A stretch of DNA of 64,000 bases, from NCBI RefSeq assembly GCF_018398315.1, contig NZ_JAHBRW010000001.1, forward strand, positions 124,001-188,000. Reading direction: 5' to 3'. A program made the translations under genes and the position numbers. The notes beneath the pieces were generated by a model. The model did not search any database. It was not told the origin of the DNA and saw only the letters and a program-made list of their open reading frames with translations. This document shows, in pieces, positions 11,873-48,257 of this stretch. How positions within the stretch are numbered: the stretch's first letter is position 1; every line of letters begins with the position of its first letter. Source of the DNA: Chelatococcus sp. YT9 (GTDB lineage Bacteria > Pseudomonadota > Alphaproteobacteria > Rhizobiales > Beijerinckiaceae).

Positions 11873-13543
<1,671 letters not shown>

Positions 13544-14398
13544 TTATTCCGCGCTCAGCACTTCCGTCCGCGAAGCCACCGCCAGGGGGGCCTTGCTGGT
13601 CGAAGCGAATTTCTGCTTCGCCTCCGTCAGCCACGCAGCATACTGCTGCTCGCTGACGATGCGAATGGCGATGGGCATAAAGGCGTGGTTCTGGCCACAG
13701 ATCAGCGAGCACTGGCCGTAGAAAATGCCCTCCTTCTCTGCCTTGAACCACGTCTCGTTCAGGCGGCCCGGGATCGCGTCGATCTTAAGGCCGAACGAAG
13801 GCATCGCGAAAGCATGGATGACATCGGCCGCGGTGACCTGCACGCGCACCGTCTTGCCGACGGGCAGAACCACTTCGTTGTCCACGGCCAGCAGACGCGG
13901 CTGACCATTGGCATCCATGTTGGAATCAAAGCTGAAACCGCCGTTTTGATCCTCAGGATATTCATAGGACCAGTACCACTGATGGCCAGTCGCCTTGATC
14001 GTGATGTCGGCCGGCGGGGTCACGAGCTGCAGGCGCAGCAGGCGGAATGACGGCACCGCGATGACCACGAGGATGAGCACGGGAACGATGGTCCACGCCA
14101 CTTCCAGGAGCGCGTTGTGCGTCGTCTTGGACGGAACGGGGTTCCGCTTCTCATTGAACCGAAATACGACGTAAATGATGAGGGCGAGCACAAACACCAC
14201 GATAATGCTGATAATCCACAGCAATCCATCGTGGAACCAATGCATGAATTCGGCGACACCGGTGACGGGAACCTGCAACCCCATCTGCCATGGGGATGGC
14301 TGGCCAACACCCGCAAAGGCCGCTCCCGACTGCACGACAAGCGCAGCTGCAGCGACAAGTGCGGCCAGGAACCGCAAACGAAAACTATCCATTCCCAT
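13544..14398 (-). CDS. ctaC: Cytochrome c oxidase subunit II (CuA subunit)
   Basis: A 284-residue protein with a signal peptide, two membrane helices (about 54-80 and 96-118) and a periplasmic cupredoxin domain. The aromatic patch GHQWYWSYEYP and the CuA loop CSLICGQNHAFMP are visible, with the upstream His in VIHAFAMPSFG. The usual loop reads CSELCG; here the Glu position is Leu. That residue ligates copper through its backbone carbonyl, so binding may survive. It is the first gene of the oxidase operon. Confidence 0.96.
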   Translation of the reverse strand: MGMDSFRLRFLAALVAAAALVVQSGAAFAGVGQPSPWQMGLQVPVTGVAEFMHWFHDGLLWIISIIVVFVLALIIYVVFRFNEKRNPVPSKTTHNALLEVAWTIVPVLILVVIAVPSFRLLRLQLVTPPADITIKATGHQWYWSYEYPEDQNGGFSFDSNMDANGQPRLLAVDNEVVLPVGKTVRVQVTAADVIHAFAMPSFGLKIDAIPGRLNETWFKAEKEGIFYGQCSLICGQNHAFMPIAIRIVSEQQYAAWLTEAKQKFASTSKAPLAVASRTEVLSAE

Positions 14399-46912: not shown

Positions 46913-47068
46913 TCAGCGCAGCGAGCTGGAGGCGGTCTCGATCAGCCTGAGAATGCTGGGGCCGATGATCGAGAGATTGGCGATGATGCCGACAACGACG
47001 AAGGCGGCGATAACCCCGTATTCGATCGTTGTGGCCGCCTTCTCGTTCCGCAAATACGCTTTGAACAT
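46913..47068 (-). CDS. Flp/Fap type IVb pilin (51 aa)
   Basis: A short gene on the minus strand, ATG at 47066-47068 and TGA at 46913-46915. It begins MFKAYLRNEKAATTIEYGVI and continues with a hydrophobic helix (IAAFVVVGIIANLSIIG). This is the Flp pilin pattern: basic leader, the conserved Thr-x-Ile-Glu-Tyr-Gly with the Glu at position 5 of the mature helix, then one membrane helix. GGGAG lies 6 bases before the start. Length (51 aa) is normal for Flp. No tad/cpa genes are near, so it is an isolated pilin. Confidence 0.9.
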   Translation of the reverse strand: MFKAYLRNEKAATTIEYGVIAAFVVVGIIANLSIIGPSILRLIETASSSLR

Positions 47069-47248: not shown

Positions 47249-47277
47249 TTGACACGTCTCAGCCGATATCATTTAGT
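47249..47277 (+). promoter_or_regulatory. Possible promoter of the MarR-GNAT gene
   Basis: TTGACA at 47249-47254 is followed after 17 bases by TTTAGT at 47272-47277 (4 of 6 to the -10 consensus). The -10 lies inside the left arm of the 19-bp inverted repeat. Confidence 0.5.
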
Positions 47278-47305
47278 TGCATGATACAACTAAATGATAT
47301 CGGCT
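47261..47305. promoter_or_regulatory. Perfect 19-bp inverted repeat (probable MarR operator)
   Basis: Arms agccgatatcatttagttg (47261-47279) and its exact reverse complement (47287-47305) flank a 7-base spacer. The repeat ends 4 bp before the ATG of the MarR-GNAT gene and covers the predicted -10 and transcription start. Long perfect palindromes at this position are typical of MarR autoregulatory sites. The region where a Shine-Dalgarno site should be (gatatcggctgatc) has none, so translation may be leaderless or start on a short leader. Confidence 0.85.
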
Positions 47306-47309
47306 GATC

Positions 47310-48257
47310 ATGTCTCCTCCCGCGGCGCCCCGGTTCATCGATGCCATCCGTGCAGCATCGCGTCAGCTCGTGCGGGAACTCGGCTTTATGGGCGGATCCT
47401 TCGCTGGGACCGACCTCTCTCCCTCAGCGGTTCATGCGCTGATCGAGATCGACGCAGGGGGGGTCACGGCCCGCGATCTGGCGGAGCGCCTTCACCTCGA
47501 AAAATCGAGCATCAGCAGAATGCTGCGCAAGTTGGTGGCTTCGGGATTGGTGGGAGAGGCCCCCGGAGATGAAGATGGGCGCCTCAAAATGCTGTCGCTG
47601 ACGACTTTCGGAAAAGATCGTGTCGACGCCATCCATGCTTTCGCGCGCAATCAAGTGGCTGATGCGCTTGGCCGCCTCAAGCCCGGCGAGGAGCGCGTGG
47701 TCCTCGAAGGCTTGCGCCTTTACGCCGACGCGCTCGCCACTCCGCGTGAAGGCCACGCCGGAGTTAGTTCTATGGAGATCGTGAGCGGATACCGCCCCGG
47801 GCTTATCGCGCGCCTCACGCAAATGCATGCGCTCTATTATTCGCGAGTTGCGGGCTTCGGCCAACGGTTCGAGTCCGTCGTCGCGACCGGCGTGGCCGAG
47901 TTCTGCAACCGCCTGGATTCACCCCGGAATGCGATATGGACCGTGACGCAAGGCGGGGAAATCATCGGCTCGGTTGCGATCGACGGCGAAGATCTCGGCG
48001 CCGACATTGCGCATCTACGGTGGTTCATTGTCGATGACACCGTGCGAAACAGCGGTGTCGGGCGCAGGCTGCTTGCGACGGCGCTGGCCTTCGCCGATGA
48101 GAAAGGCTTCTCCGCAACGCATTTATGGACGTTCAGCGGCCTTGCCGCCGCCCGGCACCTTTATGAGAAACACGGCTTCGTCTGTGCCGAGGAGTGGACA
48201 GGCACCCAATGGGGCCATGAAGTCCTTGAGCAGCGTTTCGAACGCGCCCGCCCATGA
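47310..48257 (+). CDS. MarR regulator fused to GNAT acetyltransferase
   Basis: A 315-residue protein. Residues about 1-150 are a MarR winged helix (LSPSAVHALIEIDAGGVTARDLAERLHLEKSSISRMLRKL, then GDEDGRLKMLSLT, the DxR wing). Residues about 160-315 are a GNAT domain with the acetyl-CoA loop VRNSGVGRRLLATALAFADEKG and HLWTFSGLAAARHLYEKHGF. Such bifunctional helix-turn-helix/GNAT proteins are known in proteobacteria, but few have defined targets. It is preceded by a perfect palindrome that probably binds the MarR half. Confidence 0.92.
   Translation: MSPPAAPRFIDAIRAASRQLVRELGFMGGSFAGTDLSPSAVHALIEIDAGGVTARDLAERLHLEKSSISRMLRKLVASGLVGEAPGDEDGRLKMLSLTTFGKDRVDAIHAFARNQVADALGRLKPGEERVVLEGLRLYADALATPREGHAGVSSMEIVSGYRPGLIARLTQMHALYYSRVAGFGQRFESVVATGVAEFCNRLDSPRNAIWTVTQGGEIIGSVAIDGEDLGADIAHLRWFIVDDTVRNSGVGRRLLATALAFADEKGFSATHLWTFSGLAAARHLYEKHGFVCAEEWTGTQWGHEVLEQRFERARP

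Follow-up and report, generated by a model that had tools for sequence, protein, structure and literature searches.

A long perfect palindrome lies over the predicted promoter of a MarR-GNAT fusion gene in Chelatococcus sp. YT9, and it is fairly probable, taking the comparative evidence in one joint account, that this palindrome combines an operator for autorepression with outer arms generated by quasipalindrome correction. The conserved core of the palindrome is very likely the operator through which the MarR-GNAT gene represses itself, while the long arms around it were probably made by template switching, a mechanism suggested by the pattern of arms among related species. The best explanation of the long arms does not need them to have a function. 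The operator itself is ordinary and well conserved, and it is the recurrent copying of one arm from the other at this site that is the interesting part. The window referred to below is the whole stretch of 64,000 nucleotides that was analysed, and the features that matter here are collected in Table 1.

Table 1. Features of the MarR-GNAT gene and its upstream region, in positions of the window.
Feature	Position	Strand	Remarks
Predicted -35, TTGACA	47249..47254	+	TTG 33-36 bp before dyad in 50/94 family-1 loci
Left palindrome arm	47259..47279	.	TCAGCCGATATCATTTAGTTG, 21 bp
Probably rewritten left-arm stretch	47263..47270	.	CCGATATC; exact reverse complement of 47296-47303; direction of copying most likely as given in the text
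Predicted -10, TTTAGT	47272..47277	+	overlaps left half-site; 17-bp spacer from TTGACA
Core operator (very likely), TAGTTG-CATGATA-CAACTA	47274..47292	.	upstream of 97/98 family-1 loci
Predicted 5' leader	47284..47309	+	26 nt; start placed at dyad from the -10 position
Right palindrome arm	47287..47307	.	21 bp; exact reverse complement of left arm TCAGCCGATATCATTTAGTTG
Presumed right-arm template	47296..47303	.	GATATCGG; length as in G003 right arm, partly identical
MarR-GNAT fusion gene	47310..48257	+	315 aa
MarR_2 domain	47412..47582	+	residues 35-91; Pfam E 1.7e-12
GNAT domain, Acetyltransf_1	47895..48179	+	residues 196-290; Pfam E 1.1e-14

The encoded protein contains a MarR winged-helix domain, with both the MarR_2 match and a further MarR match (2.1e-8) exceeding the Pfam cut-offs, as well as a GNAT domain, for which the Acetyltransf_1 match likewise exceeds its cut-off, and the fusion of these two domains that had been named in an earlier sequence-only reading of this DNA is thereby confirmed. 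Both halves are kept in all 13 aligned proteins, the window protein included, and R246, G249 and G251 are invariant in these 13 proteins; the window protein carries RNSGVG, which we take to be the GNAT cofactor-binding stretch. No solved structure of a full-length relative was present among 17 matches at E 0.01 or below, all of them covering one half of the protein, and no characterised MarR-GNAT fusion was found in the open-licence literature among the matches listed. Upstream of the gene, and divergent from it, lies a short ORF on the minus strand (window 46917-47068), the product of which presumably resembles a Flp/Fap-type pilin.

The inverted repeat spans 49 nt (47259-47307) and consists of perfect 21-bp arms around the 7-nt centre CATGATA, with 23 of 24 pairs matching when the centre is included. 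The sequence-only reading had correctly recognised a perfect palindrome at this place, but had given it a length of 19 bp, and it had put the end of the repeat 4 bp before the ATG, whereas the gap to the ATG at 47310 is 2 bp. According to the available text of a genome-wide study in E. coli, repeats of this kind are enriched in promoter regions and depleted immediately 5' of start codons (PMC6060812); because they are scarce there in E. coli, a repeat that stands 2 bp from an ATG is unusual. When 864 kb of the genome (the 64-kb window plus 800 kb, taken as 40 stretches of 20 kb) were screened for repeats with perfect arms and a centre no longer than 10 nt, the 49-nt palindrome came first in length, and the two that followed it had arms of 16 bp each. 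A control set of 445 further sites in this DNA that combine 6-bp arms with a 7-nt centre contains a single one that goes on pairing for another 8 bp or more, as compared with 15 bp at the MarR-GNAT site, this control being limited in that it is mostly coding DNA, where selection against extension is possible.

Several simple explanations of the palindrome could be rejected. A chance origin is countered by the genome-wide length rank, by the 445-site control and by the arm reshuffles described below; membership of a repeat family or mobile element is countered by the single exact match of the core in the genome; and a search for a terminator found none. As separate observations, one of the two repeats with 16-bp arms (L185 21-57, G000:C2:80021-80057) lies 13 bp upstream of a 266-aa ORF, the product of which presumably resembles a GntR/FCD-type regulator, and is another long palindrome at the promoter of a probable regulator, and an A+T-rich repeat with 12-bp arms (L169 12827-12857, G000:C1) overlaps the start of ORF 12843-13769, which we take to resemble a LysR-type regulator.

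Relatives of the gene were drawn from four sources, namely 60 genomes, 55 of which had some match, a genome collection (33 loci), 397 genomes of the order (63 matching at 1e-40) and 385 genomes of the class (7 matching). Excluded were 14 loci whose match was partial and in most cases limited to GNAT (L008, L012, L013, L019, L021, L022, L024-L026, L065, L097-L100) and the weak MarR-only matches L027-L032. Taking away the 10 loci that were assigned by hand to a second subfamily reduced 108 loci to 98 family-1 loci, among which are both duplicates (L034, L082) and L040, with a site 212 bp from the match. The same 108 loci were separately reduced to 97, by leaving out 7 below the core score, L016 and L040, whose best site is more than 120 bp away, and the duplicates L034 and L082; these 97 less 3 of the second subfamily gave a set of 94.

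Conservation of the core is nearly complete in this material. A strong match to TAGTTG-N7-CAACTA was found upstream of 97 of the 98 family-1 loci, in the region between 300 bp upstream and 60 bp downstream of the point where the match starts, and in 0 of 98 coding controls of equal length, while 85 of 94 loci have the shorter form GTTG-N7-CAAC. In the genome itself the core has a single exact match, with one further place at 3 mismatches, and its simplest reading is probably local self-repression. The comparison of upstream regions in relatives, which had been proposed as a check by the sequence-only reading, comes out in favour of the operator, and the self-repression claimed there is well supported at the level of sequence by this conservation, by the overlap of the core with the -10 and by its one exact match in the genome. 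At two loci (L064, L088) two core-like operators, adjacent or overlapping, are found just upstream of the MarR-GNAT gene.

The position of the promoter is conserved together with the core. In 50 of the 94 loci of family 1 a TTG starts 33-36 bp before the dyad, as compared with 5.45 on average and 9 at most in the controls. At the position of the -10 hexamer, which is provided by the left operator half-site, the 94 loci have TATAGT in 28, TATGGT in 12 and TTTAGT in 11 cases. Since a generic sigma-70 promoter scan reported no site, the assignment of the promoter rests on this conservation, which agrees with the earlier claim that the palindrome overlaps the -10 and the transcription start. A MarR-GNAT dimer bound to the core would then cover both the -10 and the transcription start at the dyad. 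A palindromic operator over the repressor's own promoter is the general type among MarR-family autorepressors, and the present case is like them in its winged-helix MarR domain and in a conserved palindrome over its own -10 and transcription start, but unlike them in the C-terminal GNAT domain, in having one exact site in the genome and in the far longer perfect arms of the putative operator. No account of the operator of the MarR-GNAT fusion family was found in the open-licence literature among the matches listed.

In contrast to the core, the outer arms lie outside the conserved operator and vary by species, a point that the sequence-only reading had missed. Their sequence is not conserved among species, and they are self-complementary in a minority of loci: in 11 of 97 loci (L003, L061, L063, L074, L077, L084, L089, L091, L095, L102, L115) pairing runs on without a mismatch for 8 bp or more, counted from position 10 outward, whereas 2000 reshuffles in which right arms were redealt among loci gave 0.24 such loci on average and never more than 3, a null that models descent incompletely. 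When each 90%-identity cluster is represented by a single locus, 10.2 of 69 are extended (0.2 expected), and the corresponding figure for 75%-identity clusters is 4.0 of 25 (0.17 expected); clustering at 65% leaves 3 clusters, with nothing significant and no power. At positions 13-20 the number of pairs per locus is overdispersed (variance 4.27 vs 1.89), as expected if few loci have complete tracts and most have none, and once the first mismatch of a long stem (at least 6) is passed, pairing falls to chance level (0.24, 131 cells), so that the stems end abruptly. Tracts with abrupt ends, as a template switch would leave them, are thus indicated by both the drop in pairing and the overdispersion. 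A rise of core symmetry was looked for in the extended loci and none was found.

It is conceivable that the long arms form an extended operator, the flanks of which would be touched by extra MarR-GNAT subunits or dimers in a species-specific manner, with selection keeping the symmetry. Consistent with this, pairing in the flanks stays above the null without the 19 best-paired of the 94 loci (0.325 vs 0.268, sd 0.017), and mild base preferences are seen at positions 13-15; this residual pairing may stem from slight preferences in the flanks, from tracts that have decayed or from common descent. However, long arms are present in 11 of the 97 loci and most relatives are without them, the outer sequences of the extended loci are mutually unlike, and the abrupt ends of the stems speak against it as well, and an extended operator is therefore considered unlikely.

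The arms of the two sister species bear on how template switching might have proceeded. In the alignment of the sisters, the left-arm sequence CAGTTCTTG is common to G003 and G002, while GGCTGATCATG, from the right arm onward, is common to the window and G003. The two arms of the window are instead reverse complements of each other, and its left arm is one base shorter than the left arms of the sisters, with the 8-nt stretch CCGATATC where both G003 and G002 have a different stretch of 9 nt. One arm is therefore like that of a relative and the other is its reverse complement, which is the pattern that a template switch would produce, and copying in the window most likely went from right to left. 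Because the gene tree, which groups the window, G002 and G003 with full support, leaves a trichotomy among the three, this direction rests on what two of the three share. In G002 the apparent direction is the opposite one (TTGTCC on the left, GGACAA on the right), with an imperfect copy that has two mismatches. A weaker additional case is that of L077 compared with L078 and L080, in which the left arms are identical and the right arms differ.

On the preferred account of template switching, the nascent strand would, during replication and guided by the short operator palindrome, have switched template and used one arm to synthesise the other as its reverse complement, which amounts to quasipalindrome correction. 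The left-arm stretch in the window would most likely have been rewritten in this way from the right-arm stretch that is its presumed template, and separate events of the same kind would have taken place at the homologous operators of other species. It has been described, in the available text of the work concerned, that quasipalindrome mutations in E. coli invariably make the palindrome perfect, one arm templating the other, and that they are stimulated by DNA-protein crosslinking agents (PMC6357072). Work on the hairpins of RNA genes indicates, in its available text, that template switching can make perfect stems in a single event (PMC8794818). In both of these systems, as here, an imperfect inverted repeat has one of its arms replaced, over a whole tract, by the precise reverse complement of the other, and the present case differs from them in that it comes from comparative genomics, concerns a probable operator and is recurrent at homologous sites. 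No account of operators created by template switching was found in the open-licence literature among the matches listed.

Selection could also maintain pairing regardless of sequence if the long palindrome regulated the promoter as a cruciform or DNA hairpin, and this would fit perfect pairing despite unrelated sequences, the location of the palindrome over the -10 and, in the available text on E. coli, the finding that promoter regions are enriched in such repeats (PMC6060812). Such a role is nevertheless quite improbable, as the long arms occur in a minority of loci and are absent from the sister G003, and as the same text describes such repeats as under-represented directly ahead of E. coli start codons (PMC6060812).

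A further alternative is that the palindrome acts at the level of RNA, as a hairpin in the 5' leader which would mask the start codon region as a thermosensor or attenuator. Both arms, if transcribed, fold at -33.9 kcal/mol (z -7.85), but because the conserved promoter geometry puts the start at the dyad, the predicted transcript has the right arm alone, for which 189 of 200 shuffles fold as well. By this promoter prediction the two arms are not transcribed together, as a regulatory RNA hairpin would need. Mismatches inside stems (6 G-T, 8 A-C, 13 other) show no excess of G-T, and because of this lack of excess the stems are apparently not selected as RNA, although G-T is slightly more frequent than A-C (105 to 85) when every mismatch between positions 8 and 20 is counted, whether it falls in a stem or not. 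In addition, Rfam yielded no RNA family at gathering score. Since the promoter geometry speaks against it and G-U pairs are not in excess within the stems, the leader hairpin was rejected as a highly unlikely reading.

The available information on the translation start also differs from the leaderless model of the sequence-only reading. With transcription predicted to start at about 47284, the leader would be about 26 nt long, and the distance from operator centre to start codon has a median of 25 bp in 97 loci, so that leaderless translation is not supported. The gene had further been said to lack a Shine-Dalgarno sequence, and pairing is indeed weak (-1.7 kcal/mol); yet this is no special trait of the gene, since weakness is common in the family, with a median of -3.1 kcal/mol over the 97 loci, the window included, and values of -5 or better in 21 of them. 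That the palindrome replaces the ribosome site of a leaderless gene, with acetyl-CoA or acetylation switching DNA binding, is in keeping with the weak pairing and with the fusion of MarR and GNAT domains, but in view of the predicted leader and the spacing in relatives it is scarcely credible; the domain fusion by itself suggests that acetyl-CoA or acetylation may be linked to DNA binding.

A second MarR-GNAT subfamily is preceded by another core, TTGACT-N-AGTCAA (e.g. L010, L131, L159). For this subfamily 70 of 102 matching loci were read and joined with 6 earlier ones, and of these 76 loci 6 failed the score, leaving 70, two of which are identical. Arm extension was found in 5.0 of 61 clusters as against 0.14 expected, and pairing at positions 13-20 is slightly raised, at 0.322 vs 0.285 with 90% clustering and 0.307 vs 0.279 with 70% clustering. 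The extreme case in this subfamily is L131, whose arms pair up to a distance of 25 bp from the axis. Several members have another TTGAC-type site downstream of the first core.

The symmetry of repressor sites in bacteria is usually ascribed to selection by a symmetric dimer. If homologous operators are recurrently rewritten arm from arm, as proposed here, symmetry would be supplied by mutation. It can be put forward, tentatively, that autorepressor operators are natural hotspots of template switching, in which the short palindrome repeatedly triggers the copying of one flank onto the other. If this were true, a bound repressor would perhaps stall the replication fork and so promote the switch, and the symmetry and length of operators would be partly mutational and would not result from selection on binding alone. 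Rewriting of arms, if it takes place, would also mean that long palindromes at promoters require no function and that covariation around operators may be mistaken for RNA structure. In this regard, the MarR-GNAT loci would offer a natural series of operators with which to ask if template switching is favoured by a bound repressor.
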